From assembly GCA_944389025.1 (NCBI GenBank), contig CALXKU010000020.1, forward strand, positions 1 to 42,380: DNA of 42,380 bases. Direction: 5' to 3'. The DNA comes from an uncultured Spirochaetaceae bacterium. Its GTDB lineage: Bacteria; Spirochaetota; Spirochaetia; Sphaerochaetales; Sphaerochaetaceae. How positions within the stretch are numbered: position 1 is the stretch's first letter; the number at the start of each line of letters is the position of its first letter. This document shows, piece by piece, positions 4,909 to 41,580 of this stretch. The position numbers and the translations under genes are program-made. A model generated the notes under the pieces. The model ran no database searches. It saw nothing but the letters and a program-made list of their open reading frames with translations, and had not been told where the DNA came from.

Positions 4909-5415
4909 TTATATCATGTAAGAGAAAGACTCAGAAAGCAAAGAAGAAAGGGATGTAAGCATCTTTTTCTCATAATCAGAGAAACGGTTCAAAACAGGGC
5001 TGTCGATATCGATAAGGCCCCAGAAAGTACCATCTTTTCTGATTATAGGAATGACTATCTCGCTTCTGCTCTTTGCAGAACATGCTATATGACCCGGAAA
5101 CAGGGAGACATCAGGAACGATAATACTCTCCATTTTCTCCGCGGCTCTTCCACAGACTCCGCATCCTAGCCTTATTTCGATGCATGCAGGCTCCCCCTGG
5201 AAAGGACCGACAATCAGTTTATCTCCATCAAAGAGATAGAATCCCGCCCAGTTCAAATCGGGGAAATAAGAGAAAATGAAAGCACTTAGATTCGAAAGGG
5301 TCGCAATGAAATGGAAATAATCCTTCTCATTCTCAATATAAGAGGATGCCACCTCCAAAAAAGAAGTGACATCCCTCTCATATATTCCGCTAGCTGTTAA
5401 AGGCGATAGCCTCAT
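4909..5415 (-). CDS. msrC: GAF-domain free methionine-(R)-sulfoxide reductase
   Basis: A 168-residue single-GAF enzyme that reduces free Met-R-sulfoxide, normally using thioredoxin. The family blocks WAGFYLF, GPFQGEPAC, GCGVCG, FPGHIACSA and SEIVIPI are present. Cys78, Cys88 and Cys112 have the same spacing as the three redox-active cysteines of the E. coli enzyme. The ATG overlaps the stop of the hydrogenase gene (ATGA), so translation is probably coupled. Its place behind a hydrogenase and thioredoxin-fold ferredoxins suggests repair of oxidised methionine during oxygen exposure. Confidence 0.92.
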   Translation of the reverse strand: MRLSPLTASGIYERDVTSFLEVASSYIENEKDYFHFIATLSNLSAFIFSYFPDLNWAGFYLFDGDKLIVGPFQGEPACIEIRLGCGVCGRAAEKMESIIVPDVSLFPGHIACSAKSRSEIVIPIIRKDGTFWGLIDIDSPVLNRFSDYEKKMLTSLSSLLSESFSYMI

Positions 5416-6863
5416 GCCTTCTTAGCCGCTGCGGCTTTGTTTGCCTGTCTCAGGCGCAGTGCAACCTGAGGCTTTACTATCGTACCAGGTCCGGCGATAC
5501 ATCCACCCTGACATGTCATGACCTCCACGAGATCGACATCCGGGGCTTTTTTCTGCCATGTGCTCATCAGCCTTACCGTCTTCTTATCGATACCATCGAT
5601 ATTCATTATCTTCACAGAAGATGGATCCTTAAGGCGTGAAAGCACGCATCCTGCCACCCCTCCGGTTACAGCGTATTCCCTGCAATCACCGAACGAGGAA
5701 TCATCTCCGAGACTCTCCTCAGGCATCTCTCTGACATCGATGTCCTTAGCCATGAAGATTGCCGCAAGCTCTGCGAATGTGATGACACCATCGATGATAT
5801 CACGATACTTCTTGTTCGCCTCCACCCTCTTGGAAAGGCATGGCCCGATGAACACCGTCTTGCGCTCCGGATCCTCCTTCTTGCAGATTTCGGCGGAATA
5901 AGCCATCGGTGAATAAGCGTCACTGTACCTTTCTTTGAGGAACGGAAGATGCTTTGGAATAAGCTCCATATAGCTGGAGCAGCATGATGTGGTCATGTAA
6001 CCCTGCTTCGATTCTATCTTCTCGACAAGTTCCTCACCTTCCCTTACGCTCGTGACTTCCGCACCCTTGGCAACCTCAAAGACATCTGTGAACCCAGCAG
6101 CCTTGAGGGCGGATTTTATCTGGCCGAGCGTTCCTGGGAACTGGCCATCAATCGCAGGGGCAATCATGGCGACAACCTTGTCACCACTCTTAAGCATCTT
6201 CAGGACATGAAGCAGCTCACTGCGCTCAACAATCGCTCCGAACGGACATGAGCGTACGCACTTTCCACATCCTATGCACTTCTCGTGTTCAACCTCGACA
6301 AAGCCCTGCTCATTCTTATGGATTGCATTGACCGGACATGCTTCCTCACATGGGACAGGGATATGCACGACAGCATGGAAAGGACAGACCTCCATGCACT
6401 TTCCGCAACGAACGCATCTGTCATCCTGGATGTGAGCCTGTCCGTTGATGAAGACAATGGCATCACGTGGACAGTTGGCCATGCATGGGCGTGCGAAACA
6501 GCCACGGCATGCGTCACTGATCCTGTACTGATCTTTTGGGCAGCCATAACATCCGCTCTTTATGGTCGTAAGAAGAGGAAGGGACGGCTCATCCTTATCC
6601 AGAACCTCTTTCACATATTCTCCAAGAGGCTTGAATTCATCATCGTCGTTATCAAGATCAACACCAAGAAGTGTGAGGATCCTGTAACGGACCATCGCCC
6701 TCTCCTTGTATATGCAGCAGCGTGATGGAATTCTGTCCTTAGGGATGATCTCAATCGGAAGCCTGTCCGCAGTCTGAACAAGAGTATCATTAAAGAAGCG
6801 GCGTACGACTTCTGCATCGATTTTCCTCTTCATTAGCGTAAACTGGTTGTTCAGTTCAATCAT
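5412..6863 (-). CDS. [FeFe] hydrogenase, probably group B, with ferredoxin-like clusters
   Basis: A 483-residue cytoplasmic hydrogenase. A helical N-terminus contains RCCIYKERAMVRYR (about 48-61), which I associate with group-B enzymes. A Cys-rich region follows (105-206), including CVRCGKCMEVCP and CIGCGKCVRSCP for [4Fe-4S] clusters. The H-cluster domain has L1 TSCCSSY (Cys294, Cys295), L2 GPCLSK (Cys342) and L3 TCQGGCIAGPG (Cys451, Cys455). Both L1 cysteines, including the proton-relay one, are kept, so it should be catalytic, but the usual Pro after them is Ser. It overlaps the upstream ferredoxin gene by ATGA. No NADH-binding HydB or maturase genes lie in the window, so the electron partner is probably a ferredoxin. 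The group assignment needs a tree. Confidence 0.88.
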   Translation of the reverse strand: MIELNNQFTLMKRKIDAEVVRRFFNDTLVQTADRLPIEIIPKDRIPSRCCIYKERAMVRYRILTLLGVDLDNDDDEFKPLGEYVKEVLDKDEPSLPLLTTIKSGCYGCPKDQYRISDACRGCFARPCMANCPRDAIVFINGQAHIQDDRCVRCGKCMEVCPFHAVVHIPVPCEEACPVNAIHKNEQGFVEVEHEKCIGCGKCVRSCPFGAIVERSELLHVLKMLKSGDKVVAMIAPAIDGQFPGTLGQIKSALKAAGFTDVFEVAKGAEVTSVREGEELVEKIESKQGYMTTSCCSSYMELIPKHLPFLKERYSDAYSPMAYSAEICKKEDPERKTVFIGPCLSKRVEANKKYRDIIDGVITFAELAAIFMAKDIDVREMPEESLGDDSSFGDCREYAVTGGVAGCVLSRLKDPSSVKIMNIDGIDKKTVRLMSTWQKKAPDVDLVEVMTCQGGCIAGPGTIVKPQVALRLRQANKAAAAKKA

Positions 6864-7130: not shown

Positions 7131-8327
7131 CTACAGGTATTCTACTGAAGTTTCTTTTATGTAATTTTCCTCAAGAGCTTTTCTCAGACGTGCGATTATG
7201 GTTCGCCTGATACCGATCTCGAAAGGAATATTCGGATCCTGATGCGCTTCGTTGATCTTCGTTCCAACTATGATATGTATCTGATCGGAATCCAGAAGAA
7301 TCTCAACGAACTTCTTTGCGGGATCATTCGGCATGTCCGCAATATTCTCCTTCTTCTCAAGCGCGGTAACTACTTTGCTAAGGGTAAGCATACCCTCCGT
7401 CACAAGATCTATGCCTTCCATTTTGGATGCGGGAGGAACATCCGGGGACCAGCACGAGAGATCCACCTTGAGCTTTTTGCCGAAAAGACGAGCTACGATC
7501 TGAGCCGTCGTTCCACCGGAGACAATCTTCTTTCCATTGAAGTTCCTGATTTTCTCACCAAGAATCTCGTCCGCCTCCTTCGTAAACGGTGGTCCCGTGA
7601 CAATAAGCGTCCTCCTCGGCCTTCTTATATACACGACAACGCAAGTAATATCATCTTTGGATGAGAATCCATCGAGTGCACATGCCTTCTGCACTATCGC
7701 CCTACTGAGCTCACGGGATGAGATGTCAGGATTGGCAGAAATCTCCTCCTTAATAAATTTTCTCACCCCGTCAAGGCGCCATCCAAGGGGAAGACTCTTA
7801 CCAAGCCCCGACTGGGTAACACCATCTGAGAACATCACAAGGCGCTCTCCGATATCCATCTTGAAAGAAGACTGTGCGATCGTCTCCTTCTTGAACGCCC
7901 CTTCCCTCTTAAGCTCGGTCCTCGTCCTGTCCCATTTGATATCCTCCGCACCCGAAAAACGCAGCGATGCCGGGTTATCGTACTCGATGAGGTTCACGGC
8001 GATATTCTCCATGTCATCGTTGTAGTGTATATCGGCGATGGTGAATGTGGAGTAGCTGATCTTCCTCTCCTTACAGACAGGAAGGGTATCCATTATGATC
8101 TCAGCCGAGTGCTCAAGGGAAATCGGCGAGAATGACAGCTTATGAGCCATATGGGCAGTAAGGGATGCAAGAACGTTCGCCTTTACCCCGCTACCAAGAC
8201 CATCGGAGAGCGTTGCAACGATCTGATTGTTCTCAGGATTCCTGGAAAGGAGGAAGACATCTCCTCCGATCTTCTGTCCATGCTTATATATCTGCGCATA
8301 ATCCACGTCGATGAAGATGTTATTCAT
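7131..8327 (-). CDS. SpoIIE-type PP2C serine/threonine phosphatase with C-terminal extension
   Basis: A 398-residue protein. Residues 1-235 are a PP2C/SpoIIE phosphatase domain: the metal-binding motifs GGD (22-24), LSDGLGSG (about 41-48), FSDGVTQ and SKDDITCVVV are all present. About 160 further residues (from RRPRRTLIVTGPPF) form a second domain that I cannot name; it has a GGTTAQI motif and no membrane segment. The start overlaps the HydS gene by ATGA, a strong sign of a working pair. In other bacteria sensory [FeFe] hydrogenases are often encoded beside phosphatases or kinases, so this protein is probably the output of HydS. Its phosphoprotein target is not visible here. Confidence 0.9.
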   Translation of the reverse strand: MNNIFIDVDYAQIYKHGQKIGGDVFLLSRNPENNQIVATLSDGLGSGVKANVLASLTAHMAHKLSFSPISLEHSAEIIMDTLPVCKERKISYSTFTIADIHYNDDMENIAVNLIEYDNPASLRFSGAEDIKWDRTRTELKREGAFKKETIAQSSFKMDIGERLVMFSDGVTQSGLGKSLPLGWRLDGVRKFIKEEISANPDISSRELSRAIVQKACALDGFSSKDDITCVVVYIRRPRRTLIVTGPPFTKEADEILGEKIRNFNGKKIVSGGTTAQIVARLFGKKLKVDLSCWSPDVPPASKMEGIDLVTEGMLTLSKVVTALEKKENIADMPNDPAKKFVEILLDSDQIHIIVGTKINEAHQDPNIPFEIGIRRTIIARLRKALEENYIKETSVEYL

Positions 8328-10114
8328 GTGATATCCCTGTCATCCTCCATCGTGAAATCCTTGTCATCTCCTGCAGCGGAATGGACGCTGAATGCATCGA
8401 TGAGCGAATTAAGCATGATCTCGGTTTCAGCCGCATTCTCACCGAGCAGGCTTGCAATCTGCTGAACCGTCTCAAGAGATTTCTGTATTACGTCCTCAGC
8501 TTTCTTAACGACAGTCTCCCTCTTGATTGTCGGATTCGTGATATCATCGAACATGGCACCAAGGAGTCTCTTCTTCTCCACGAGGAAGAAGGTCACACGG
8601 ATGAACTTATCCTTGTAGTGCATCCTGTACTGTCCAGGGTGAGAAAGGTAGAACTGGTCCTTGAACTTGTCCGCAAACGGGACGAAACGCTCAACGGGAA
8701 GACCTCGTACGAGGGAGAGCATGCTCTGGTCGACAAAGCCCTCTTCCATGTCTCCGAAAAGATCCAGGAACTGGGTGTTGCAATCAGCTATCTTGAGATC
8801 GCTGTCCACGATTACGACGCCCATTGGAATCGTACGAAGAAGGACATCGACCTTACTCTGGGCCTCTTTCCTCATCTTGGTAACGCACATCTCCACCTCA
8901 GCCATTCCATCGAGGTATGCTATCGCCATACCACGGCATGTGGAATAGCCGCAGCCACCACAGTTAAGCTCGTCAGCTTTCGTAAGCTTTCCAAGCTCAA
9001 CAAGAGCCCTCTTTATATCATCCTCACTATGCTTTTTATGGAAAGAATCCTCTTTTCCTGGCTGACTGCCTCCAAGGATTGCATAGCCCTTCTCAAGCAG
9101 GAGATCGGAAAACTCATCATCCCCTTTGAAGAGATCCTTCTCCTCAAGTCTTCTCTGAACATAATCGCTTGAAGCCTTCTTTCTGAAAGCTATTGAGTAA
9201 TCCCTCTCGGTTCCAGGTCCGTTGACACAACCACCGTCACACCCTAACAGCTCAAGGAACGCAGTTGGCTCATGCTTATCCCCAAGTGCGGATAGAACTT
9301 GGTCCATACCAGAGAGAGCAATCGCTTTGGCATGAATCGGATCATGTCCCCAGATCTCACTTGATGTTATCTGTCCTCCCTCGATCGGATATAGGCTTGA
9401 AACTCCCGCTTTAGCCGGAATGAATTCAACCTGCTCCTTAACCTCGAGGGTATCAAGATCGATTCCCTCACTTGAGAGCCAGTTCTTGAGCTCTACGAAA
9501 GTAAGTGCATAATCAGGATAGCCTGGATACATATCTGCCTCATGCTTCTTTGCGGCACATGGTCCGATGAACACGATTATGATATCTTCTCCGTAAAGCT
9601 TTCTCAAATACGCACTGTGGCACTCGAGCGGAGATGGAATCGGAGAGAGCCGGTATAGACTATCAGGATAGTATTTCTTAACGAGCTCGACCACGGACGG
9701 GCAGGCAGTTCCAATCCAGTTACACTCCCCTCCATTGCGCCTGATATGCTTATCGATTGCTTCTGTCACCAGATGAGCTCCGATAGCGGTCTCACTGACA
9801 TCGGAAAAGCCAAGGAGCTTAAGAGCGTAAAGCAGCTTTTCCTCCTGAAACCTGAACTCCGATGAATAGGATGGAGCAAGGGAGCAGATTGCCCTCTTGC
9901 CACTTGAGAGCGCAAGCTTGACGCGTGAAACATCATCCCTTATCTTCTTCGCATTATTCGGACAGACATGAACGCACTTACCACAGAAAATGCATCTGTC
10001 CTTGATTATCATGGCATGGCCATCCTTGATCTGAATCGATTTCGTGGGACAGACTCTGACGCATTTGTAACAGTCCCTGCAGCTTGTAATCTCAGTATAA
10101 ATCGGATACTGCAT
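8324..10114 (-). CDS. hydS: Sensory [FeFe] hydrogenase HydS with Fes and PAS domains (group C)
   Basis: A 596-residue modular sensor. Two [4Fe-4S] motifs (Cys12-22 and Cys41-51) precede a hydrogenase domain of about 70-310 with L1 GTACPS (Cys138), L2 GPCAAKKHE (Cys186) and L3 GCDGGCVNGPG (Cys292, Cys296). Ala137 stands where catalytic hydrogenases have the proton-relay Cys; the same change is known in sensory HydS and goes with low activity. A Fes-type motif follows (Cys385, 388, 393 and 410), then a PAS domain (about 422-530) and a helical tail. It has no kinase domain, so the signal must pass to a partner, most likely the phosphatase encoded by the overlapping next gene. The H-cluster presumably senses H2 or redox state. 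Confidence 0.92.
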   Translation of the reverse strand: MQYPIYTEITSCRDCYKCVRVCPTKSIQIKDGHAMIIKDRCIFCGKCVHVCPNNAKKIRDDVSRVKLALSSGKRAICSLAPSYSSEFRFQEEKLLYALKLLGFSDVSETAIGAHLVTEAIDKHIRRNGGECNWIGTACPSVVELVKKYYPDSLYRLSPIPSPLECHSAYLRKLYGEDIIIVFIGPCAAKKHEADMYPGYPDYALTFVELKNWLSSEGIDLDTLEVKEQVEFIPAKAGVSSLYPIEGGQITSSEIWGHDPIHAKAIALSGMDQVLSALGDKHEPTAFLELLGCDGGCVNGPGTERDYSIAFRKKASSDYVQRRLEEKDLFKGDDEFSDLLLEKGYAILGGSQPGKEDSFHKKHSEDDIKRALVELGKLTKADELNCGGCGYSTCRGMAIAYLDGMAEVEMCVTKMRKEAQSKVDVLLRTIPMGVVIVDSDLKIADCNTQFLDLFGDMEEGFVDQSMLSLVRGLPVERFVPFADKFKDQFYLSHPGQYRMHYKDKFIRVTFFLVEKKRLLGAMFDDITNPTIKRETVVKKAEDVIQKSLETVQQIASLLGENAAETEIMLNSLIDAFSVHSAAGDDKDFTMEDDRDIT

Positions 10115-10531: not shown

Positions 10532-11191
10532 TCAAATCATATCCTCATCGGAATCTAAATCATCGCTTTCCGCCAATTTCTTGCTCAGCTTTACAGAAAG
10601 AACTGCAAAACTGGTTGCAAGATCGGTCCTCTGAACAACGACGCTTTCAGGAACTTTCAGATCTTTGGGGGCGAAATTCCATATACCCCGTATACCGCAT
10701 TTCACAAGCAGATCACATACGGCCTGAGCCTGTATAGCGGGAACCGTTATTACGGCGATGCTTATCCTGTTCTCCATGATGAAACGGTTAAGACTCTCCA
10801 TGCTCTTTACGGTGAAACTTCCGACACTCGTGCCTATCTTCTCTGTGGATTTGTCGAATATGGCGACTATCTTAAGCCCATAAGAGGCAAAGCCATCATA
10901 GCGAGCAATAGCACTGCCAAGATTTCCAGCCCCTACTATGAGGGCATCGGTCGTATTATCCCAGCCAAGGACATGGGTGATATAGTGAATGAGCTCCTCT
11001 ATGTCGAAACCGATTTTCGGCTTACCCTCGATTCCGGTAGACGAGATATCCTTTCTTACCTGTATCGGGTTAAGCCCCAGCTCCTCCGCCAGGTTCGTTG
11101 CACTGATATATTTCTTTCCCGCGTCCTTTGCCTGATTAAGAATCCTCAGATAGGATGGGAATCTCTTTATCGTTGGTATTGGGATGCTCAT
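10532..11191 (-). CDS. rex: Redox-sensing transcriptional repressor Rex
   Basis: A 219-residue repressor that senses the NADH/NAD+ ratio. The N-terminal winged helix (IPTIKRFPSYLRIL ... NPIQVRKDISS) and the Rossmann motif GAGNLGSA (about 87-94) are diagnostic, and NFAPKDLKVP follows near the C-terminus. It overlaps the ispH stop by ATGA and lies just upstream of the hydrogenase operon in the same direction. Rex commonly represses fermentation and hydrogenase genes, so control of that operon is likely, although no textbook Rex operator is seen in the gap. Confidence 0.96.
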   Translation of the reverse strand: MSIPIPTIKRFPSYLRILNQAKDAGKKYISATNLAEELGLNPIQVRKDISSTGIEGKPKIGFDIEELIHYITHVLGWDNTTDALIVGAGNLGSAIARYDGFASYGLKIVAIFDKSTEKIGTSVGSFTVKSMESLNRFIMENRISIAVITVPAIQAQAVCDLLVKCGIRGIWNFAPKDLKVPESVVVQRTDLATSFAVLSVKLSKKLAESDDLDSDEDMI

Positions 11192-12018
11192 ATCTCTTCT
11201 AATCTCCTCACTGCCTTATCTATAACATCATCAGGGGTGCTGCTTCCAGCACTTACTCCGATGGTCTCATACCCTCTTATATCTTCAACTCTTATATCAT
11301 CGGCACTTTCAACCAATGATGAGCCGATACCGTTATCAAAAGCCTCTTTCACAAGCGCATTGGAATTAGCGCTTCTTGGATCCCCGATAACGTAAATGTA
11401 AGGAACAAGGCCCTTCATTGCCCTTATGGAGGCTCTTCTCCGCTCGCTCGCCATGCAGATTGAGTTTGAGACGATATATAGGATTCCTCTCCTATCCAGT
11501 TCTTCCAGCAGCATCTCATATCTGCGGGTCTCAAAAGTTGTCTGAACTATGACACGGTATTTCCTGTCATTCGGAACCTCAGCAAGATCGGAAACATCCT
11601 GAACAACATAATACTTCCTTCTAGCCGCGCCCTCGACAGCCACCGTCTCGCTATGACCTTTTATTCCGAAAAGTATCACATCAAGCTCGCTGGACCTCAT
11701 CAGATCCTGATTCTTAAGAACAAGCGGGCATGTGGCATCTATGATTTCGGAGCCTCTAGCCTCAAGCTCTTTCCTCTCGCTATCACTTATTCCATGCGCC
11801 CTTACAAGCACGACCGATCCCGGCTCAACATCCGATGCATGATAGACGGTATCAAAACCATAGCTGGCGACCCTGTCCATAACGCTCTGGTTATGAGCAA
11901 GATCCCCATAAACATACAGTTTTCTCCCCTGGTAATTCGCTCGGACATTCTCCACCATGGAGAACGCACGCTTGACTCCAATGCAGAAACCCATTTCCTC
12001 AGCTTTAATAACTTTCAT
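11188..12018 (-). CDS. ispH: 4-hydroxy-3-methylbut-2-enyl diphosphate reductase
   Basis: A 276-residue [4Fe-4S] enzyme for the last step of the MEP isoprenoid pathway, making IPP and DMAPP. Cluster cysteines are Cys12 (GFCIGVKRA), Cys97 (ATCPLV) and Cys188 (NSICMASERR); the active-site His42, His75 and His122 (AHNQ, RAHG, GHSE) are in place. I chose the ATG at 12018 rather than a TTG at 12066 because the conserved N-terminus MKVIKAEEMGFC begins there and because the TTG lies inside the predicted promoter. The resulting leader is only about 8 bases, with no Shine-Dalgarno sequence. Rex is coupled downstream. Confidence 0.95.
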   Translation of the reverse strand: MKVIKAEEMGFCIGVKRAFSMVENVRANYQGRKLYVYGDLAHNQSVMDRVASYGFDTVYHASDVEPGSVVLVRAHGISDSERKELEARGSEIIDATCPLVLKNQDLMRSSELDVILFGIKGHSETVAVEGAARRKYYVVQDVSDLAEVPNDRKYRVIVQTTFETRRYEMLLEELDRRGILYIVSNSICMASERRRASIRAMKGLVPYIYVIGDPRSANSNALVKEAFDNGIGSSLVESADDIRVEDIRGYETIGVSAGSSTPDDVIDKAVRRLEEI

Positions 12019-12032
12019 ATCAAATCGATAAA

Positions 12033-12061
12033 ATTTTACCCGTATCTTTAAAATATTGCAA
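12033..12061 (-). promoter_or_regulatory. Promoter of ispH-rex
   Basis: Minus-strand TTGCAA (12061-12056), 17 bases, TAAAAT (12038-12033). This fixes transcription near 12026, about 8 bases before the ispH ATG, so the mRNA would be almost leaderless. Confidence 0.65.
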
Positions 12062-12071
12062 ACCAAAGGTG

Positions 12072-14379: not shown

Positions 14380-15819
14380 TTAGACTATAATGCCTAAAAC
14401 GCGCGTACCTTCACTCTCAAAAGAGATCTCGCCGCCTGCGTCGTTGAGGAGGAACACAACTAAACTGTACGGCTTCATGTTAAAATCATAGTCAGGAAGA
14501 TCAGGAAGAAGCAAACAATATGAAAGCATGTCAGACATATCGAAGCCTAACGAACCATCATAGAACTCCTTGACATCGTATCTTGGATCATCCGTCAGTC
14601 CCCGCCCCGTCGTTACAACCATCATGCAGAAGTCATAGAAAAGGGTACCGAAGTCCTCCCCTGTCGCATGCTCAATCATCCTGTAGTCATTGTATGGACA
14701 TGTGTAAATCTTCTGGATGATCTCTTCTCCGAATCTTGCTTTCAGATAATTGAAGAACATGGCAGAAAGAGCATAACTATATGCTTGTTCCTCATCATAT
14801 CTCCATTCTATCAAGGAATTGTCACCATCAACATCGATAAAAAACATTGCCAGATCACACACCCGTTTCTTGAATATTTCGTCTCTACCAGAGTATGCCT
14901 CCGCAAGGCTGGACAAGCCTTCTGTTATCCACATTGAGAAATCAAAAGGCTGGCTATAGATCCAACGGTTGGCACTGAACACCTGATGCTGAAGTTCATG
15001 GACCATTACAATCTTGGTTAATTCATTGAAATAAGAATCAGGACTCTGAACAGCATTCAGTGAAAGATAGATGACATCACCTTCATTTGACATCCCATCC
15101 GTCTCTTCATCATTAAAGAAATCTGCCGTAGACTGATAACCAATCACGGTCTCATCCCATTGTCCGAAAACGGCTATAAGCTTCCCATTTTTGTCAATAT
15201 CTGAATATGGTCCGAAAATCTCCTTGAACCTCGGATAGACTTTCTCGAAATCATCTACAAGCACTTTGATATCGTCCAGATCTTCCTGATCATATTCTAC
15301 GTCTTCCTCAATCATGACATATACGTTTTCTGTGATGTAAACGCATTTTACGTCTGCAGAACGGCTCTCAGGCAAGTACAAATATACATCTTCCCAGACA
15401 TCTCCAATTTCAAAGACGTGATCACCAGAGTGTACCAGATTTCCATTATTTTCATATGTTCCAGGAATTTTCGGTGTCAGGAGAGGAAGGGAATCTGAGT
15501 GTCTGTCACGAATGAATTCAGCTCCTTTAATTCTGGGAGAAGTAAAATGGAGACTGACCTTTGCAAAATCGGAGGAGGAAAACTCTGTTTCATTGCTTCC
15601 ATCGAACCCGTAATTCTGATCCTCCTGAGGCAGGCATAGGAAAAGAGCGTACATGGCATTCTCCGGCAACGTGTAGGTTCTATCCTCTTCAAGCAGCAAT
15701 ACTCCTTCAGGGACATCCAATCCCCCTGAGGGATTTTCCTCCTTTTGGGAATCTGGAGGAAGACAAGAGCAGAGCAGCAGGACAATACCGATACAGAAAA
15801 ATACTTTTTTGAAACTCAT
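14380..15819 (-). CDS. Putative zinc metallopeptidase lipoprotein (M30-like)
   Basis: A 479-residue predicted lipoprotein: signal peptide with lipobox L-C-S-C (Cys19). A gluzincin-type site is present: HELQH (His274, Glu275, His278) and a downstream WITEGLSSLAE that can supply the third zinc ligand (Glu300). The HELQH...TEG pattern resembles the M30 hyicolysin family, but the overall similarity cannot be judged without a search. The N-terminal 170 residues look like an all-beta module. It is the last gene of the lemA operon and overlaps the DUF92 gene by ATGA. Probable substrate: host or peptidoglycan-linked proteins at the cell surface, unproven. Confidence 0.7.
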   Translation of the reverse strand: MSFKKVFFCIGIVLLLCSCLPPDSQKEENPSGGLDVPEGVLLLEEDRTYTLPENAMYALFLCLPQEDQNYGFDGSNETEFSSSDFAKVSLHFTSPRIKGAEFIRDRHSDSLPLLTPKIPGTYENNGNLVHSGDHVFEIGDVWEDVYLYLPESRSADVKCVYITENVYVMIEEDVEYDQEDLDDIKVLVDDFEKVYPRFKEIFGPYSDIDKNGKLIAVFGQWDETVIGYQSTADFFNDEETDGMSNEGDVIYLSLNAVQSPDSYFNELTKIVMVHELQHQVFSANRWIYSQPFDFSMWITEGLSSLAEAYSGRDEIFKKRVCDLAMFFIDVDGDNSLIEWRYDEEQAYSYALSAMFFNYLKARFGEEIIQKIYTCPYNDYRMIEHATGEDFGTLFYDFCMMVVTTGRGLTDDPRYDVKEFYDGSLGFDMSDMLSYCLLLPDLPDYDFNMKPYSLVVFLLNDAGGEISFESEGTRVLGIIV

Positions 15820-16634
15820 ACCGCAACCACCGTTAAAATAAATGCAATCATAACTGAGAACAGGCCAGAAAGCAGATTGACCACATCATTGTCTATGAAA
15901 GATATTCCACGAGCCCTTTCATTCTTCCTGCCATCACTCTCCCCATGCTCGGTAAGACTTCCATCATCCCTCCTGTAATGCACCTGTACCGTTGCACCGA
16001 GGAAGGAGTCAAAGAGGGCCCCCAGGGTTCCGGATATCGTGATAACGGGAAGCATAAGCAAAGGAAGCGTGAAACACCCTACCGAAAGAAGCGCCACGAG
16101 AAATGAACCTAAGAGGCCTGAGAAGGTGCCAAGTGCGCTTACCCCGCCACTTAATCCTTTGGGAACTTTTGTGAAGGTTATTATCGAAACAGGATCACTC
16201 TTGCTGAGCGAGCCTATCTCCCCGCTCCAGGTATCGGCAACGGCCTCCGCGATTCCCGTGGAGAACATGACAAGACCGAGTGTGTCATACACAGTGAAAC
16301 GGAAGAGGAACAATCCGATCAATGCAGGGATGCTGTTCGCAAGTACCTGCATCGCATCCCTTCTTGCACCCTTCTTCTGTATTTTCCTTCTATTATCGGG
16401 AATGATCTTCCCGATAACGGCCGCAGATAAGAAGAAGAAAAGCATTATGAGGATGCCAGAAAGACCTCCGATGTATGTGATCACAGATCCTACGATGAAC
16501 GCTGCGATAAGCCCGCTTCCTGTAAGCTGCTTCTTCCTGATGGAAAACAGGACGATGAGCATCATCAGGATGAAGATGATCAGAAGCCGGACGGATATGG
16601 GCATGGAAAAAAAATAAGAATCAATATAAGCCAT
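15816..16634 (-). CDS. DUF92 membrane protein (VTE6-like)
   Basis: A 272-residue membrane protein of the DUF92 family, with about seven hydrophobic segments and the family motifs ADTWSGEIG, FTKVPKGLSGGVSALGT and GALFDSFLGATVQ. The plant and cyanobacterial member VTE6 is a phytyl-phosphate kinase that turns prenyl monophosphate into diphosphate. Here its start overlaps the VTE5-like gene by 14 bases, so the two probably act in sequence. Without chlorophyll or tocopherol pathways, a polyprenol or other isoprenoid alcohol is the likely substrate (inference). A start at Met11 would remove the overlap and cannot be excluded. Confidence 0.85.
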   Translation of the reverse strand: MAYIDSYFFSMPISVRLLIIFILMMLIVLFSIRKKQLTGSGLIAAFIVGSVITYIGGLSGILIMLFFFLSAAVIGKIIPDNRRKIQKKGARRDAMQVLANSIPALIGLFLFRFTVYDTLGLVMFSTGIAEAVADTWSGEIGSLSKSDPVSIITFTKVPKGLSGGVSALGTFSGLLGSFLVALLSVGCFTLPLLMLPVITISGTLGALFDSFLGATVQVHYRRDDGSLTEHGESDGRKNERARGISFIDNDVVNLLSGLFSVMIAFILTVVAV

Positions 16635-17277
16635 TGAAAGCTCCTAATGCAAAAGCGCTTATCAGGGGAACTGTTATATTATCAAAGCCGAGGGGGGTTA
16701 TGTTTTCAAGGAGAGTGGCGAAAATAGCTACAAGCAGGGAGACGTACCACGGCCCCTCAGGATAGACAACAAGAAGAATGGTAAGGGATACTGCGAACAT
16801 GGTAAGTGTTCCCTCAAGACTCTTCTTTCCTCCAATAAAGCTGTAGCCATGACGGCCGAAACGGCTTCCAATCAGGGCGGCAAGGCCATCCCCGAAGCCC
16901 ATCATCAGCACGGAAGATATGACGATCCTCTCATCGGCAAGGCCGTTATACATCATAATTACCAGGACAAGTATCGAGAGTGGATAGTATATCAGGCCGT
17001 TATCCCGCTTCCTGTTCCCCATGCCAAGGTATTTCGAGAATCCGGAATACACGAACGCGGCATTAAGGAATATGAAGGTCACAGGCCCGATAACAGCCCA
17101 GGCAAGGCTGTCATAGCAGTTCACAAGTATGAGAACCCAGCCTGAGACCAGGATATGGATGAACTTTCTCACACCCTCGCTGCCTATCTTCGTAAAGCGG
17201 TAAAGGACGAAAGCCACCGCTATAATCGCGAGAATATATATAAATGAATATATCGTTGCCAGAAGATTGGTGTTCAC
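16621..17277 (-). CDS. Dolichol/phytol kinase-like membrane protein (VTE5-like)
   Basis: A 218-residue integral membrane protein of the CDP-diglyceride synthetase/phytol kinase family. Characteristic pieces are VRKFIHI near 36-42, LMMGFGDGLAALIGSRFGR (about 125-143) and the GGKKSLEGTLTMF block. Members use CTP or similar donors to phosphorylate long-chain isoprenoid alcohols. The start codon is GTG, overlapping the DUF2207 stop as GTGA. With the DUF92 protein encoded next, the likely path is prenol to prenyl phosphate to prenyl diphosphate. Assignment as a phosphatidate cytidylyltransferase is less likely because that signature is not complete. Confidence 0.82.
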   Translation of the reverse strand: MNTNLLATIYSFIYILAIIAVAFVLYRFTKIGSEGVRKFIHILVSGWVLILVNCYDSLAWAVIGPVTFIFLNAAFVYSGFSKYLGMGNRKRDNGLIYYPLSILVLVIMMYNGLADERIVISSVLMMGFGDGLAALIGSRFGRHGYSFIGGKKSLEGTLTMFAVSLTILLVVYPEGPWYVSLLVAIFATLLENITPLGFDNITVPLISAFALGAFNGLY

Positions 17278-19142
17278 CAGCTCCTACCTCCTCCACCAGA
17301 GAACCCCCCTCCCGAGAATCCTGAGAAACCGCTATGGCTTCCAGAGCCCCCTCGGAACGTGTTTGACGGGGATGGTGCTATCAGATTCCTTTCATTTTCA
17401 TAACTTCTTCTCCAACGTGTGGAGAAAACATGCCACATGAGATACCCCCCTACAGGATCAAAACCTGAGTACCACTCTGGATAAGAGAGGCTCAACGCTT
17501 TGAATTTGGCACTGTACTTCTCTTCCAGATTCAGGGCTATCGCATAACTCAGGTTATGATAATAAAATTCAGGGTCTTCTTCTATCATGGCTCTCAGCTG
17601 GTCCATTTCAACGGTCTCCAGGAACTCCTTATAGCCCAGAATCTCCGCAAGCATCTCATCCGCATACTCGCTGCGCTTGTTAACAGCAAAAGAGAAGAAA
17701 GAGGTCGAGAATACACCGGCGGTATTAAAGAGAGCAAGAAGCAATGCAAACGGTATGGAAAACGATGCGAGGCTCAAGAGGTAAGCAGACACAGAAAAGA
17801 GAGCTGCCATAATGATGGCAAGGAAAGTGAACTGCAGAGCCACAATGGAGTTATGTACCGCACTGTTTGAGAAATACTTATGCCCGACCGCGGATGAAAG
17901 TGCGAACGAGAAAAGGGATGGGAAGAGCAAAAACAGCGTAAGATCCCCCACGTTCGGGATGGAGACGAAAAGGGAGAAGACTATCTGAAGGGCGATGCCA
18001 AACATCCTCAGAAGGGATGCCCGCCTGATACTCTTTCCTTCAAAGAGCGGGTGATTCTTCTCATAATACCGCTCCACATCTGGGGAGATCTTCGCAGTTG
18101 CCTTCTGGCAGAAATTCCTCCTTGCAAGGGACTCCATGTCACACTGGTCGGATGTGGAGAAAAGAAGGGAGAAAAGATTCCTCTCATATGGTGGCCTGTC
18201 CTCCTCAACCTCTTTGAGCTTGATGAATGTGAAACCATCCCCGCTCTCCTTTATCCTCATATATCCCTTATCTGCGAAATAAAAGAGCATTGAGAGTATA
18301 TCCTTCTCAAATGTGATGGCCCCATCGATTATATAGCCGACATCAAGACTGCTAAGGCCCTCTGGGGGATTAAAGCGCACAGGAGACACTATCTCCTTAT
18401 CACGACCAAGGTGGTAGTAGGAATAATAGACGAACGCTATGACCAAGCCTGCAATGATTATATAAAGCACAGGAAAAAGCGATCCGTAATCCTTCTTAAC
18501 CGCCTTTGTGCTGAAATACCCCTCATCAAACTCAGCCCGAAGCGTCACTCCACTATAAGGACCAAGGTCGTATACTATCCCAGAAACGGTTCTTAGGTCA
18601 CTTGAGATCATGTAATCCAACTCAGCAGTGGAGCCATAGCTACCGCCGGTGAGCCATATGCGCTGCGGATCTATCTCATGAGGGAATGTAACAGAGAATG
18701 AGAATGTGCCGATATCAGTATCCCATGCGGGAGAGAGGAGATTGACATACCACTCGTCATACTCCCTGTTCCCGTCATCCTCCAAAAGAAAATCATACAT
18801 TATGTGATAGTTGACGTGCCCGAAAACATACCTATCCGGAGAACCCAGGCGCAGAGAAAGGAAATCATCATTATAGCTCAGGCTCGACTCAACATTAGCC
18901 ATTATGTTCGATACATCCGCACTGAGGGTCACGAACGGCCTTGGATTGAAACGGTACTGTATGTCCCTGATAATCCCATGACTTGGGGATTTGAAATCGA
19001 GATCGAGGAACTCATTGAAAGTACTCTTGCTGTCATCAGCGACCATAACATCAACATGATAACTATCGACAACGAATGTTTCCCTGGAAAATAAGGGTGC
19101 TATGCATAGCAGTGCCGCGACTACGGCAAGAACCTTTCTCAT
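17274..19142 (-). CDS. DUF2207 membrane protein with Gly-rich tail
   Basis: A 622-residue protein: signal peptide, a large extracytoplasmic beta-rich domain (about 20-215, DUF2207), a membrane helix near 225-245, a cytoplasmic stretch, then two to four further helices (about 395-500). It ends in a tail of Gly/Ser/Phe repeats (FSGFSGGGFSGGGG). Such tails are typical of DUF2207 and TPM-domain proteins. Its biochemical role is not known. It is almost always encoded next to LemA, as here, where the two overlap as TGATG; together they are thought to act at the membrane. Confidence 0.85.
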   Translation of the reverse strand: MRKVLAVVAALLCIAPLFSRETFVVDSYHVDVMVADDSKSTFNEFLDLDFKSPSHGIIRDIQYRFNPRPFVTLSADVSNIMANVESSLSYNDDFLSLRLGSPDRYVFGHVNYHIMYDFLLEDDGNREYDEWYVNLLSPAWDTDIGTFSFSVTFPHEIDPQRIWLTGGSYGSTAELDYMISSDLRTVSGIVYDLGPYSGVTLRAEFDEGYFSTKAVKKDYGSLFPVLYIIIAGLVIAFVYYSYYHLGRDKEIVSPVRFNPPEGLSSLDVGYIIDGAITFEKDILSMLFYFADKGYMRIKESGDGFTFIKLKEVEEDRPPYERNLFSLLFSTSDQCDMESLARRNFCQKATAKISPDVERYYEKNHPLFEGKSIRRASLLRMFGIALQIVFSLFVSIPNVGDLTLFLLFPSLFSFALSSAVGHKYFSNSAVHNSIVALQFTFLAIIMAALFSVSAYLLSLASFSIPFALLLALFNTAGVFSTSFFSFAVNKRSEYADEMLAEILGYKEFLETVEMDQLRAMIEEDPEFYYHNLSYAIALNLEEKYSAKFKALSLSYPEWYSGFDPVGGYLMWHVFSTRWRRSYENERNLIAPSPSNTFRGGSGSHSGFSGFSGGGFSGGGGRSW

Positions 19143-19693
19143 CAGAACTGGACCTTCACATTCTCTTTCTTCTCATCAGAGACATCAACGTAGCTGAGTT
19201 TTGAGAATCCCATCGGCTTCGCAATCAGGGATGCGGGGAATACCATCATCCTGTCATTGAACATCCTAGCAGTGGCATTGTAGTACTTTCTCGCGTTAAG
19301 AATCTCACTTTCCACTTGATTAAGGCTGTTCTGCAGCTCGATGAAACTTGCGTTCGCCTTCAGATCAGGATAGCTCTCCGCAAGGGCAAAAAGACTCTTA
19401 AGAGTGCCTGAGAGTGCGTTATCCGCCTTATCCCTCTCATCAAGCCCCTTTGCAGAAAGACAGGCATTCCTAGCTTCTATTACCTGGCTGAGTGTCGCCT
19501 CCTCATGCTTTGCATAACCCTTCACGGTCTCAACAAGATTCGGAATGAGATCATAACGCTTATTGAGATGGACATCGATTCCGCTCTCGGCCTCCTCCGC
19601 TCTGTTTCTCGCCTTGACAAGTCCGTTATATATTCCAATCGCCCATATGGCAATCACTATGACTATGGCCAAAATGATGAAAAAGACAGTCAT
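19142..19693 (-). CDS. lemA: LemA family protein
   Basis: A 183-residue protein anchored by one N-terminal membrane helix (about 3-23), followed by a four-helix bundle exposed to one side. The family mark YNGLVKARNRAEEAESGIDV is present (shown in part), as is NKRYDLIPNLVETVKGYAKHE. First gene of the five-gene operon. The start has GGAGG four bases before the ATG. Function is unsettled in all bacteria; association with DUF2207 proteins is conserved. I find no convincing promoter in the 166-base gap shared with argR. Confidence 0.93.
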   Translation of the reverse strand: MTVFFIILAIVIVIAIWAIGIYNGLVKARNRAEEAESGIDVHLNKRYDLIPNLVETVKGYAKHEEATLSQVIEARNACLSAKGLDERDKADNALSGTLKSLFALAESYPDLKANASFIELQNSLNQVESEILNARKYYNATARMFNDRMMVFPASLIAKPMGFSKLSYVDVSDEKKENVKVQF

Positions 19694-37038: not shown

Positions 37039-40000
37039 CTAATTTCCTTGATAAACAATAGTCGCATTGCAATCTCTATCCCAATTGGCTATCCATGTCG
37101 GTATCCCCAGCTCTCCTTCCTTCCATGGAACATGTATTTTCTGCTCACTTGTCCATCCTTCAAATGCACCCGTGCCAACTACATCTATTGTATCTGGCAG
37201 TGTAATGCTTTTTATGCTTGTGCAATTTGCAAATGCCTTCTCTCCGATGGATTTTACATTCTTACCGATGATGAGATTATCGAAAGAAAGATTCTCACAA
37301 TTATTAAAAGCATAAGCACCAATCTCTGTCACTCGGTTTGGAATATTTATCGTCTTAAGATTTGAACATGAATTAAAACTACCTCGAAGTTTGAGATGAA
37401 CATCTCCTTCATCTATAATAACTTCAGTAAGCTCATTGCAATAATAAAAACTATTGTAAATCATATTAACATTAGCAGGAATTCTCACTCTCTCAAGTTC
37501 TGTATTCGAAAACGCGAGATTCCCTATGGTCTCAAGAGTGTCCGGCAGCACGATCTCTTTAAGGCGATATGAGTCCTCAAATGCTCTATCTGGTATTTTT
37601 ATTGTACCTTCCTCGAATATAACTTTTTCAATAGCTGATGCCTCTGAGATATAGTTATTGGTTATACTTTTGGGGATATACACGACCTTGAGATCTTCAC
37701 AAGGGATGTCCATCACTCCGGGTTTGCCAAACCAGTTTCTAGCAAGTTCTGTTACAGGGTAACCCTTATATTCAGATGGAATTATGAAGATATCCAGCGG
37801 GCTTTTAAGACTTGTCTCTGTTCCTGTGACTGCATAATGCGTGATATTCCCATTTGTGTCTTCTCTGGCTGTAAGTTCAAAAGCACCCCATGAAGGCTCG
37901 TCTTCATCATCATATACTACATCCACATTCTCAACTCCAAGGTTCCACTCAGGATTCCACATCACTCTGGTTTTTCCCTCCTGCCATGGCACTGTTATCT
38001 TTTTAAGATTGTCAGAGCCTCTGAACACACCTGAGCCCATATCAATCACGCTTTCAGGAATCACAATCTCTGAAAGAAGAGTGTTCTCAAAGGCATAAGA
38101 GTATATCTCTTCAACATTTTCTCCTATTGTGATTTCCCTGAGCTTGGTATCTTTAAAAGCACTGCTTCCGATTATCTCAAGAGATTCAGGTAAGGTTATC
38201 TCTTCAATATCAAGACCTTCGAAAGCTGAAGCTCCAATGCTCTTGAGATTCTGAGAAAGTTTTACATTCTTGATACTTGAACCCATGAAAGCTTCACTAC
38301 CAAGTTCGGTAACGGAATCAGGAAGAGCAATCTCTGTCGCACTCGTTCCGCTGAACGCATTTGCATTTATTTTTGTAACCTTATCTCCGAGAGTTATCGA
38401 TGTGATATTCTCACAGCCTTTTATGAAGCTCTCTGGAATTATGCTTACATTCACACTCATCTCCGTAAGAGAAGTGCAACCACTGAAGCAGGAGGTACCA
38501 AGGGATACGACGCTTTGCGGTATGACTATCTCCGGCAGAGAAGCACAATCTTTGAAGCTTGAAGCCCCAATGGATTCAACCCCTGATGGAATAATTATCT
38601 CCTTAAGGGAAGTACATGAATTGAATGCATTGCTTCCTATAGTTTTCAGTCCACCATTTAAAACAACAGTCTCAAGAGATGAACATCCATTGAAAGCGCC
38701 AGCTTCTATTTCAGTAATATGAGACGGGATCTCTATGTGCTCAAGAACTGTACATCCACTGAACATTCCATCAGGAATTACGACACATTTTTCACTGAAA
38801 GTAACACTTGAGATATTGATACAGTCTTTAAATATATCGCTGTATCCATCCAGAGGACGATTCTCCAGATTCAAATAAGGGACGACAACAGAGGTAAGCA
38901 AGTTGCAGTCGCTAAATGCATTGTCTCCAAGGTATGAGAGAGAATCATGAAGTTTTACTTCTCTTAATCCACTTTGCCTAAAGGCATCCCTCCCTATCTT
39001 TGTAATATTCTCAAAAGAGAATTCCTCAAGAGAAATACATCCCATGAAACCCTTTTCTGGAATCTCTGTGACAGTATCCGGTAGTGAGATGCTGCTCAAT
39101 GATTCACAGTACAGGAAAACCCCAGATTCAAGAGTTTTTACGCTTGCTGGAATTTCAATTTCCTTAAGAGAGGTACAATAGCGGAAAGCCTGAATCCCTA
39201 TTTCTTCAATTCCATCATGAAGAACAATTCTCCCAAGATTCTGACACCCATTGAATGCCCATGTCTCTATTGTCTTTATGTTCCCCGGTACCACAACCTC
39301 AGTTATCTCAGTACCGTTAAAAACACCGCCCTCAAGAGTGGTTAGTCCTTCAGGAATTACAACCCTCTTCAATACTGTATTAGAGAAAGCACCCCCTCCA
39401 AGCCTAGTCAACGATGAGGGAAGATCAGCAACTCTAAGGCTCTCAGAATATTCGAATGCATCTACTCCAATTTCCAGAAGGGATAAAGGGAAATATACTT
39501 CTTCCAGATGACTGCCATAGAATGCGCTATCCCCTATTTTCTCAATCCCCTCTTCAATAACCACAACCTCAAGATGGGAATTATTATAGAAAGCATTTGA
39601 TGCTATCTCTTTCACAGGTAAGCCTTCGTGCTCTGAAGGAATTATAAGTTCTGTGATGTCTTTATAACCGCTATTCAGCCCTGATACTATATAAGCGGTT
39701 TTATCAGCATTAAGAGTAAATTTTATTGCCTCCAGATTGCCTTCAACGACAGGTCTCTTGCCATCATAGCCTATCGGGATATCATCATTACCAAGCCAGG
39801 AGGCGGACCATCCATCAGGCTTTTCATTTTCTTTCCAAGGAACAATCACGTACTCCATGGAGGAACACCCCTGGAAGATATCGTCTCCAACAGTGATAAC
39901 ATTATCCGGTATTCTCATGAATTCGAGAGCAGAACCCCCGCTAAATGCATAATCCCCAATTGATGTAACCGTGTAAGGGATGCTGATTGTATTGAGATTT

Positions 40001-41379
40001 GAGCACTGGTAGAATGCATTGCTTGTTATCCCTGTGACACTGCGCCCTTTAATCATTGAAGGAATCGTTATGCTTGTCTTTGATTTATCAAGAAGTCCTG
40101 TAATCGTATAGGAATCGCTTGTCTCATTATAAGAAAAAGAAAAGCCCTCATATTCGCTGACTACAAGAGGACCGAACGAATTATCTACTTCCGCATCACT
40201 TCCGTTCCAGCTCTCATTCCATCCCTCAGGAATGAACGCACCATCGATATTAGTCTTTATGACAGTAAGTTTAGTACAACCTAAGAAAATATTTTCTCCG
40301 ATAGTTATACAACTTGATGGGATCTCGATAGAAATGAGGGATGAACAGTCGGAGAAAGCCCCCTCCCCGATGCTTTCAAGAGAGGATGGAAGCTTTATTG
40401 ACACCAGTTTTTTACAGGAACTGAAAGCATTCTTTCCGATGCTTACAACAGAATCAGGAAGAGTAATCTCTATTAGATTAAAGCAGTCTTTGAAAGCTCC
40501 CTCAGGTATGACTTTCAGAGTTGAACCATCTTCAAAGATAACTTTCTTCAGACTCCCGCAATAAGCGAATGCCTCTGATGCAATCTCTGTAATTGTCGAA
40601 GGAATCTTGATAGATAATATGTTTCCAGTCAGGCTAACACCATCAATTCTGATGACTGGGAGATCAAGATGCACTGATGGAATCGCAATCTCAGCTTCGG
40701 TCTCACCAAGAGCTAATGAAGCATTAAATATGACAGCCCATGCATTCATGCCTTCAATGAATCTGTAAGTGTATGCGTTCTCGATTCCTGCATCCGGATC
40801 AATATATTTTCCAAAGAATTCCAGATCGCCATCTACTCTGTACGACCTCTCTTCTACTGGGATGGTTAGGTTTTCATAGCAATACCAGGAAGAAAACTCC
40901 ATGCCACCCTTGTTTTCCGGAATAAAGAACTCTTTGAGAGGATTATTGATCTCATAGAAACTTCTGGCCCCTTTTCTTACAGCATATCTGGCAACAGGAT
41001 TCCTCTCTCCCTCTGAAATATCATAGAGCGTGATGAAATAGTAGTCCTCGCTGCCTTTCACCTCATCGATTGGAGTCCACTTGGCATAGAAAACAGTATC
41101 TTTTGTAAGTTCATATGGGAAAGAGACAGGTGTCTCTCCTTCGGCGTCCAGAGCCCACCCTGAAAGAGCATACCCGTTTTTCAGCGGAATGCTTAAAGGC
41201 TCATCCAATATGGTCTTGTCAGCGGCCTCCATGGCCTCCATATAGCTCTGGGCAGTCCAGGTTGCACCATTCGGATCATATCTGTATGAGAACAGTTCCA
41301 CATCCGGCGAACAGGACGAGAATATCATGAGTATGATTGCAAAAAGAATTAATATGGCTGATTTCCGGAAAGCTGGCAT
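37039..41379 (-). CDS. BspA-type leucine-rich-repeat surface lipoprotein
   Basis: A 1446-residue predicted lipoprotein; the start at 41379 has AGGAGG six to eleven bases upstream, and the frame before it begins only with TTG. The lipobox is FSSC with Cys23. One InlB-type repeat (about 30-103) and a second related segment (to about 193) come first, then dozens of LRR_5 (BspA) repeats with LxxIxIPxxVxxIGxxAFxxC. The array is divided into four blocks: an entry motif with a DxxxYxVTGL-like strand and IPSxxxGxPV, then the LRRs, then a cap such as VPWKEGE...W...W near 380-405, 512-540, 1129-1155 and 1415-1446. BspA proteins bind host proteins and aid adhesion. Likely surface exposed; no anchor other than lipid is seen. 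Confidence 0.92.
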   Translation of the reverse strand: MPAFRKSAILILFAIILMIFSSCSPDVELFSYRYDPNGATWTAQSYMEAMEAADKTILDEPLSIPLKNGYALSGWALDAEGETPVSFPYELTKDTVFYAKWTPIDEVKGSEDYYFITLYDISEGERNPVARYAVRKGARSFYEINNPLKEFFIPENKGGMEFSSWYCYENLTIPVEERSYRVDGDLEFFGKYIDPDAGIENAYTYRFIEGMNAWAVIFNASLALGETEAEIAIPSVHLDLPVIRIDGVSLTGNILSIKIPSTITEIASEAFAYCGSLKKVIFEDGSTLKVIPEGAFKDCFNLIEITLPDSVVSIGKNAFSSCKKLVSIKLPSSLESIGEGAFSDCSSLISIEIPSSCITIGENIFLGCTKLTVIKTNIDGAFIPEGWNESWNGSDAEVDNSFGPLVVSEYEGFSFSYNETSDSYTITGLLDKSKTSITIPSMIKGRSVTGITSNAFYQCSNLNTISIPYTVTSIGDYAFSGGSALEFMRIPDNVITVGDDIFQGCSSMEYVIVPWKENEKPDGWSASWLGNDDIPIGYDGKRPVVEGNLEAIKFTLNADKTAYIVSGLNSGYKDITELIIPSEHEGLPVKEIASNAFYNNSHLEVVVIEEGIEKIGDSAFYGSHLEEVYFPLSLLEIGVDAFEYSESLRVADLPSSLTRLGGGAFSNTVLKRVVIPEGLTTLEGGVFNGTEITEVVVPGNIKTIETWAFNGCQNLGRIVLHDGIEEIGIQAFRYCTSLKEIEIPASVKTLESGVFLYCESLSSISLPDTVTEIPEKGFMGCISLEEFSFENITKIGRDAFRQSGLREVKLHDSLSYLGDNAFSDCNLLTSVVVPYLNLENRPLDGYSDIFKDCINISSVTFSEKCVVIPDGMFSGCTVLEHIEIPSHITEIEAGAFNGCSSLETVVLNGGLKTIGSNAFNSCTSLKEIIIPSGVESIGASSFKDCASLPEIVIPQSVVSLGTSCFSGCTSLTEMSVNVSIIPESFIKGCENITSITLGDKVTKINANAFSGTSATEIALPDSVTELGSEAFMGSSIKNVKLSQNLKSIGASAFEGLDIEEITLPESLEIIGSSAFKDTKLREITIGENVEEIYSYAFENTLLSEIVIPESVIDMGSGVFRGSDNLKKITVPWQEGKTRVMWNPEWNLGVENVDVVYDDEDEPSWGAFELTAREDTNGNITHYAVTGTETSLKSPLDIFIIPSEYKGYPVTELARNWFGKPGVMDIPCEDLKVVYIPKSITNNYISEASAIEKVIFEEGTIKIPDRAFEDSYRLKEIVLPDTLETIGNLAFSNTELERVRIPANVNMIYNSFYYCNELTEVIIDEGDVHLKLRGSFNSCSNLKTINIPNRVTEIGAYAFNNCENLSFDNLIIGKNVKSIGEKAFANCTSIKSITLPDTIDVVGTGAFEGWTSEQKIHVPWKEGELGIPTWIANWDRDCNATIVYQGN

Positions 41380-41404
41380 ACCCCACCTCCTTTTACTGCT
41401 GAGT

Positions 41405-41580
41405 CCCAAATCAAACTACCCGCCCAGAGCTTTTTGATGAGATATCAAACGGTTATTATTTCTCTGGGATACATTCAAAGTCTAGCATGACACATAGCTG
41501 TTGGAAAGATTTTTAATCTCCAGAAGAGACTAAATATTGCCTATGGTATCCCATAAATCGCTAAAAGAAATATTTATAAT
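41405..41580 (-). promoter_or_regulatory. Surface-protein promoter-leader module, copy B
   Basis: Minus strand: inverted repeat TTTAGTCTC-TTCTG-GAGATTAAA (41534-41512), then TTTCCA (41507-41502), 17 bases ending in TGC, TAGACT (41484-41479). The start is near 41472. The leader stem CCCAGAG/CTCTGGG (41468-41462 with 41429-41423) encloses 32 bases. The G tract of copy A is broken here (GGGCGGG), but both copies keep CAAAAAG before and GGGTAG after the stem. Confidence 0.75.

Follow-up and report, generated by a model that had tools for sequence, protein, structure and literature searches.

The window analyzed here is a 42,380-nucleotide stretch from an uncultured Spirochaetaceae bacterium (contig CALXKU010000020.1; GTDB family Sphaerochaetaceae), and the analysis concerns a pair of overlapping minus-strand genes that code for membrane proteins predicted to be kinases of prenols and prenyl phosphates (Table 1). 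The upstream gene codes for a Sec59/VTE5-like protein and the downstream gene for a protein of the DUF92 family, which we take to be the family of COG1836 (VTE6). An earlier note on this DNA reported that the two genes overlap by 14 bases, which is exactly what the two open reading frames (ORFs) show. The kinase gene also overlaps the preceding DUF2207 gene by 4 bases, and purine-rich sequences resembling ribosome-binding sites are visible by eye ahead of both start codons. Both genes are under purifying selection. Compared pairwise among the window and three of its close relatives (six pairs for each gene), they show a nonsynonymous divergence (dN) of 0.18-0.30 and a synonymous divergence (dS) that is greater than 2 or saturated.

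Judged by sequence, the assignment of the downstream protein to DUF92 is secure (PF01940, E value 4.5e-59; 200.3 bits versus a Pfam gathering score of 27.5), and it is the only PF01940 match in its genome. The protein scores 110.8 bits against TIGR00297, under the curated cut-off of 205.85, and so falls outside this narrower NCBIfam hypothetical equivalog within DUF92. For the upstream protein, a Sec59/VTE5-like identity is reasonable on the basis of motifs and predicted fold. The window kinase carries GDxxA...G (at 129), KSxEG and ExxxPxGxDN, which we take to be the motifs of Sec59/VTE5/PolK prenol kinases. In alignment A1, composed of the window kinase and 22 pair-linked homologues, the invariant columns include R37, K38, H41, D130, G137, G141, K152, G156, E191, P195, D199, N200, V203 and P204; G129 and A133 reach at least 90%, and the E of KSxEG is neither invariant nor at that level. 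The residues R, K, H, D, G155, E190, D198, N199 and P203 are also invariant in alignment A3, which holds 33 more diverse homologues. Thus, the R, K and H of an RKxxH signature are kept in 23 of 23 and 33 of 33 rows, and their spacing in the window kinase is the same as in the charged clamp (Arg29-Lys30-His33) reported for PfPolK, a Plasmodium prenol kinase (PMC10849223). The two families proposed in the earlier note, VTE5-like and VTE6-like, therefore suit these genes.

The two genes are tightly linked. DUF92 is present in 24 of 40 related genomes, comprising the window's own, 22 of the 23 others of its genus, and one from another family (G039; G and L labels denote genomes and loci). In all 24 the kinase gene is directly upstream, truncated in one case by the end of a contig. 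A further DUF92 fragment, located on a different contig, was found in one genome. With the nearest start codon chosen at each of these loci, the overlap measures 14 bases in four, 13 in three and 4 in 14, and the rest give 1, -1 and -23. In a wider family set of 30 DUF92 loci (26 new ones plus L108, L111, L113 and L114), the kinase adjoins DUF92 in 29, and the DUF92 gene of L179 starts at a contig end. Among 296 Spirochaetota genomes, 21 carry DUF92 and 20 of these have the kinase beside it or fused to it. Nineteen of the 20 kinases adjoin by position, and that of G261 lies in the same frame as DUF92 and was seen in the fetched locus only (E value 9e-12); G237 has DUF92 with no kinase beside it. 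Nine of the DUF92-bearing genomes lie outside the family, and eight of these have the neighboring kinase.

Kinase and DUF92 form a single reading frame in four of the 21 genomes (G167, G230, G318 and G261), and fused versions occur in loci labeled Heliobacterium chlorum, Saccharibacteria and Marinimicrobia (two). Among the 80 best loci from public genomes, some of them cut by contig ends, the kinase is adjacent or fused within 6 kb in 46, with labels that include Clostridium, Petrotoga, Mycoplasmatota, Bacilli, Marinimicrobia and Saccharibacteria. The same 80 include DUF92 genes without a neighboring kinase from Neobacillus/Bacillus, Enterococcus and Anaerolineae/Chloroflexi. The conserved gene order and the fusions favor consecutive enzymatic steps for the two proteins. 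The order pgi-argR / lemA-DUF2207 / pair / groEL is kept in many related loci, so conservation of the pair is partly general synteny, which does not explain the fusions or the distant loci. The window pair exemplifies an arrangement that is widespread in bacteria. The earlier note had emphasized its occurrence in a non-photosynthetic bacterium. The pair is indeed present there, but this is not special, since adjacent or fused pairs are also present at loci labeled Clostridium, Petrotoga, Mycoplasmatota, Marinimicrobia and Saccharibacteria, none of them photosynthetic bacteria.

Sec59-like kinases outside such pairs are common. The kinase profile matches 173 of the 296 Spirochaetota genomes, and most matches are unlinked to DUF92, whereas each of the 12 genomes of the window's family in this phylum sample has one match, the linked one. 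When 50 chosen linked sequences and 19 unlinked ones are placed in a midpoint-rooted tree, the linked kinases group together with a single unlinked member, L212, at a node of modest support (0.71), and on this ground we rejected treating the unlinked kinases as the same thing. The L212 ORF (L212:909-2291, genome G065) is 461 amino acids long, and its N-terminal kinase domain groups with the kinases of fused pairs; its C-terminal half has no Pfam match at an E value of 0.1 or lower and is perhaps a diverged second kinase. Three other unlinked kinases (L205, L211 and L213, from G099, G042 and G077) follow an N-terminal HAD-hydrolase-like domain (PF00702; E values of 1.3e-4, which is below the Pfam cut-off, 2.5e-8 and 3.6e-6, respectively), and could possibly be phosphatase-kinase proteins. 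In many genomes of family f20 (0.9-1.9 Mb), an unlinked Sec59-like kinase sits at a near-constant position, about 417-443 kb on contig 1. In G351, two separate matches raised the suspicion of a broken DUF92 gene, but a run of N lies between them, which removes the basis for that reading.

What was unexpected is the metabolic setting of the pair. In hidden Markov model (HMM) searches, the window's own genome yields no match and no candidate for PF00348, the family of trans-prenyl synthases responsible for farnesyl diphosphate (FPP). The genome does carry ispG (E value 3.2e-119) and ispH, the two genes of the methylerythritol phosphate (MEP) pathway that were searched, together with a single undecaprenyl-diphosphate synthase (UppS; E value 2.8e-72). 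The ispH gene that the earlier note placed nearby is confirmed. Our isoprenoid searches covered Spirochaetota. Of the 296 genomes sampled across the phylum, 277 have PF00348, compared with only two of the 12 from the window's family, all 12 of which have ispG. Ten of the 19 genomes without PF00348 therefore belong to this family, and among the other nine only G061 and G126 combine a completeness of 90% or more with contamination of no more than 5%. UbiA (PF01040) occurs in the same two family genomes that have PF00348, and gave no match in the window's genome or the nine others. For the window's own genome, this contradicts the role in quinone-like lipids offered in the earlier note, which we rejected.

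The family itself was sampled with 61 genomes. PF00348 is present in 19, whereas UppS (one copy each) and DUF92 are each present in 56. The 42 genomes without any PF00348 match, on which our case for an FPP gap is built, comprise 36 with both UppS and DUF92, two with UppS only, one with DUF92 only and three with neither; hence 38 of the 42 have UppS, and 36 of those 38 have DUF92. When only the 43 good-quality genomes are considered, 29 are without PF00348, of which 26 carry UppS and DUF92, one (G346) carries UppS only, and two (G336 and G349) carry neither. Fisher's test gives a p value of 0.003 for the 42 genomes, and the p values obtained range from 0.003 to 0.007; they are too small because genomes were treated as independent with no correction for kinship. 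All three sampled genomes of genus g159 (G336, G349 and G361) have no match to UppS, PF00348 or DUF92. These genomes measure 1.2, 1.2 and 2.0 Mb, and G361 is 87% complete.

We read all 23 PF00348 matches of the family and placed them in one tree together with Escherichia coli IspA and IspB and 21 further Spirochaetota sequences. Every one of the 19 positive genomes carries a form that falls among IspB-like sequences, and in 15 this IspB/HepT-like form is the only one. A second form is found in four of the 61 genomes (G260, G351, G362 and G366) and clusters with the copies of families f18 and f20, presumably Treponema- and Borrelia-like, where most genomes have one PF00348 match and where this form presumably makes the UppS primer. 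An NCBIfam scan of seven of the 23 matches agrees with the tree in direction, with all scores below the equivalog cut-offs, and so the label of long-chain form reflects best score and place in the tree. Up to 57 of the 61 family genomes may thus have no dedicated FPP-type enzyme.

Since the window's genome has ispG, ispH and UppS and no match to PF00348, the salvage product it would need most is an allylic primer for undecaprenyl diphosphate. We tentatively favor a model in which the kinase pair makes this primer from a scavenged prenol and so replaces FPP synthase. In this model, whose enzyme activities, substrate, nucleotide, use by UppS and external prenol origin we infer, the two proteins would be consecutive membrane kinases. 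The Sec59/VTE5-like protein would phosphorylate a prenol taken from outside the cell, most simply E,E-farnesol, to its monophosphate, and the DUF92 protein would add the second phosphate to give the diphosphate (FPP from farnesol). By analogy with the plant enzymes, the nucleotide would be cytidine triphosphate (CTP). UppS would then extend the salvaged allylic primer with MEP-derived isopentenyl diphosphate (IPP) to undecaprenyl diphosphate, with the primer standing in for the FPP of the trans-prenyl synthase that most sampled family members are without. The lipid-alcohol salvage function raised in the earlier note fits the families, linkage and fusions, and its suggestion of undecaprenyl as a destination is both supported and sharpened by the presence of UppS, ispG and ispH without PF00348.

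A need for such a primer is suggested by Bullifex, which has been placed in GTDB's Sphaerochaetaceae, taken here as the window's family. According to one report, murA-G, murJ and mraY are found in the studied Bullifex porci and Sphaerochaeta genomes, murotetrapeptides were detected, and rumen fluid improves the growth of Bullifex porci (PMC7738495). If the family is indeed the same, undecaprenyl phosphate and a supply of its primer would be required. The rumen-fluid effect is compatible with prenol uptake and with much else.

Several observations weigh against this model. The kinase protein has no match in Pfam (E value of 0.1 or lower) or in NCBIfam (E value of 1 or lower), although Pfam may cover this branch of Sec59-like proteins incompletely, since linked homologue L059 and unlinked homologue L207 likewise have no Pfam match. 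The inferred absences of isoprenoid genes come from HMM searches of draft genomes. The joint absence in g159 concerns one clade and is at best one event, and G346, a good-quality genome in 210 contigs (96% complete), carries UppS and is without both PF00348 and DUF92. Moreover, the nine DUF92-bearing genomes outside the family all have PF00348, and at least two of them (G167 and G239) have no ispG match, so DUF92 is not specific to loss of FPP synthase. Where present, the long-chain PF00348 form might itself make FPP. Finally, relative to E. coli UppS, family UppS proteins mostly have L for A47, I for A143 and V for L139, and always E for D150. We take these to be positions that line the substrate pocket, and because several of them differ it is possible that UppS uses a different primer.

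The co-occurrence of DUF92 and PF00348 in those nine genomes, eight of which have UbiA, together with the presence of the pair in distant phyla, is what would be expected if the pair served general salvage or recycling of prenols such as farnesol, geranylgeraniol or polyprenol as a supplement, with UppS primed in some other way. We consider this unlikely as the full explanation for the window's family. General salvage leaves the FPP gap of the 38 genomes with UppS and without PF00348 unexplained, and by itself does not account for the retention of DUF92 in 56 of 61 genomes, some as small as 1.2-1.5 Mb, or for its joint absence with UppS in g159. The same nine genomes, at least two of them without an ispG match, point to a broader use of the pair, which may have made loss of PF00348 possible instead of having evolved for that purpose.

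Certain cis-prenyltransferases can use short primers, and the altered pocket positions would suit a family UppS that starts from dimethylallyl diphosphate (DMAPP) and needs no FPP. The pair would then be used elsewhere, for example to re-phosphorylate undecaprenol. A DgkA-type undecaprenol kinase (UdpK, PF01219) belongs to a different family from the pair, feeds undecaprenyl-phosphate metabolism from the alcohol and makes the monophosphate only. No PF01219 match was found in any of the 12 genomes that represent the family in the phylum sample, including the window's own, nor is there a second Sec59-like kinase match, and both absences speak for this reading. However, an undecaprenol kinase would presumably not need a phosphate-adding DUF92 partner. 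The window's UppS is 37.5% identical over 232 positions to E. coli UppS, whose annotation gives (2E,6E)-FPP as its specific substrate. In an alignment of 30 of the 56 family UppS matches, the E. coli residues D26, N28, R30, R39, H43, F70, S71, R77, R194, R200, S202 and E213, which we assume are the essential catalytic set, are kept in all 30. We also looked for a fixed difference between the 13 aligned sequences from PF00348-positive genomes and the 17 from negative ones, and no column separates them at an 80% threshold. We consider priming by DMAPP unlikely as well.

The predicted folds bear on a third alternative. AlphaFold2 models have a predicted local distance difference test score (pLDDT) of 94.0 and a predicted template modeling score (pTM) of 0.90 for the kinase protein, and 94.5 and 0.92 for the DUF92 protein. 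The top four Foldseek rows for each model are CdsA, a CTP-dependent lipid cytidylyltransferase; the best E values, 0.047 for the kinase (PDB entries 4q2e/4q2g) and 0.039 for DUF92, are not significant alone. A second aligner matches the kinase to CdsA (Z 8.7, root-mean-square deviation 5.1, 163 aligned positions; below the level at which the tool stops advising caution for helical bundles) and DUF92 to 5guf, which we take to be CarS (Z 7.6), a TRIC channel (7.2), CdsA (7.0) and an MgtE-like protein (7.0), all Z values that fall within the chance range for helical bundles in the aligner's guidance. Sequence searches of solved structures give no match for the kinase profile at an E value of 10 or lower, and seven rows for DUF92, all at 0.26 or worse. 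Aligned to each other with hhalign, the two families reach a homology probability of 5.5% with narrow alignments and 52% with broader ones, which is suggestive only; the latter pairs the GDG and KSxEG regions of the kinase with the ADT and SGGVSxLGT regions of DUF92. A shared CTP-binding origin of the two proteins is thus plausible. The fold matches would also allow both proteins to be CdsA- or CarS-like cytidylyltransferases that make cytidine diphosphate (CDP)-activated lipids, but we rejected this as very improbable because HGGxxDR, which we take to be the CdsA signature, is missing from both, the RKxxH clamp is invariant in the kinase homologues, and CdsA and Sec59/VTE5 kinases are related anyway.

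The closest known systems are the plant and cyanobacterial phytol kinase VTE5 and phytyl-phosphate kinase VTE6, which share both families with the window pair as judged from motifs and the Pfam model, not from direct sequence comparison, and which act in consecutive steps as we propose for the window pair. Unlike in those organisms, the window's genome has no evident tocopherol or quinone sink, as there is no UbiA match, and the proposed product is a UppS primer. A review states that VTE5, VTE6 and FOLK prefer CTP, that VTE6 was first suggested through comparison of bacterial genomes, and that the identified enzymes of the phytol-phosphorylation pathway are only plant and cyanobacterial (PMC9782597). 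PfPolK is presented as the first farnesol/geranylgeraniol (FOH/GGOH) kinase from a non-photosynthetic organism, and salvages prenols in a cell that also has the MEP pathway; in contrast to what we propose here, Plasmodium makes its own FPP and geranylgeranyl diphosphate (GGPP) through that route. The PfPolK text contains zero occurrences of DUF92 and one of VTE6 (PMC10849223). In searches confined to open-access PubMed Central, we found no report of the kinase-DUF92 pair, or of FPP-synthase loss accompanied by prenol salvage, in spirochaetes or other bacteria.

It is the setting of the pair, with UppS present and no PF00348 match, that deserves attention. A further, more doubtful proposal is that most of the family makes its own IPP, has given up FPP synthase, and relies on prenols that the host's diet or neighboring organisms provide, with the pair turning them into the sole allylic primer of the cell-wall lipid carrier. 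Judging by the names of metagenome-assembled genomes, many family members come from animal guts. If true, the family would offer a natural case of obligate prenol auxotrophy among bacteria, and, were the prenol phytol or geranylgeraniol, its lipid carriers might have unusual starter units.

The pair occupies the third and fourth positions of an apparent operon of five minus-strand genes with small overlaps. The DUF2207 gene is upstream of the pair in many related loci as well. By contrast, a relative of the final, lipoprotein-like gene is present in only one of the 87 loci compared (L026), and this gene is not a conserved operon member. Its protein shows a weak resemblance to MXAN_6640-type metalloproteases (NF045524, 19.6 bits versus 140).

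Table 1. Features at the locus of the kinase-DUF92 pair, with positions numbered along the window.
Feature	Position	Strand	Basis or detail
Sec59/VTE5-like membrane protein, predicted prenol kinase	16621..17277	-	218 aa, GTG start; ORF
DUF92/VTE6-family membrane protein, predicted prenyl-phosphate kinase	15816..16634	-	272 aa, ATG start; PF01940
Overlap of kinase and DUF92 genes	16621..16634	-	14 bases, from ORF coordinates
LemA protein, first gene of apparent operon	19142..19693	-	PF04011 3.3e-53
DUF2207 membrane protein, upstream neighbor	17274..19142	-	PF20990 8.4e-22, PF09972 2.9e-12
Lipoprotein-like gene, HELQH motif, last in apparent operon	14380..15819	-	weak NCBIfam NF045524
ispH (lytB), last MEP step, nearby, outside pair	11188..12066	-	PF02401 2.3e-64

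Elsewhere in the window, positions 8324-10114 code for a protein that by Pfam resembles iron-only hydrogenases and has ferredoxin and PAS domains. By eye, a phosphatase-like gene (7131-8327) and a second hydrogenase-like gene (5412-6863) lie beside it, and the three genes perhaps constitute a sensory hydrogenase group. Positions 37039-41409 code for a protein of 1456 amino acids with many leucine-rich-repeat-like units that appears BspA-like by eye.

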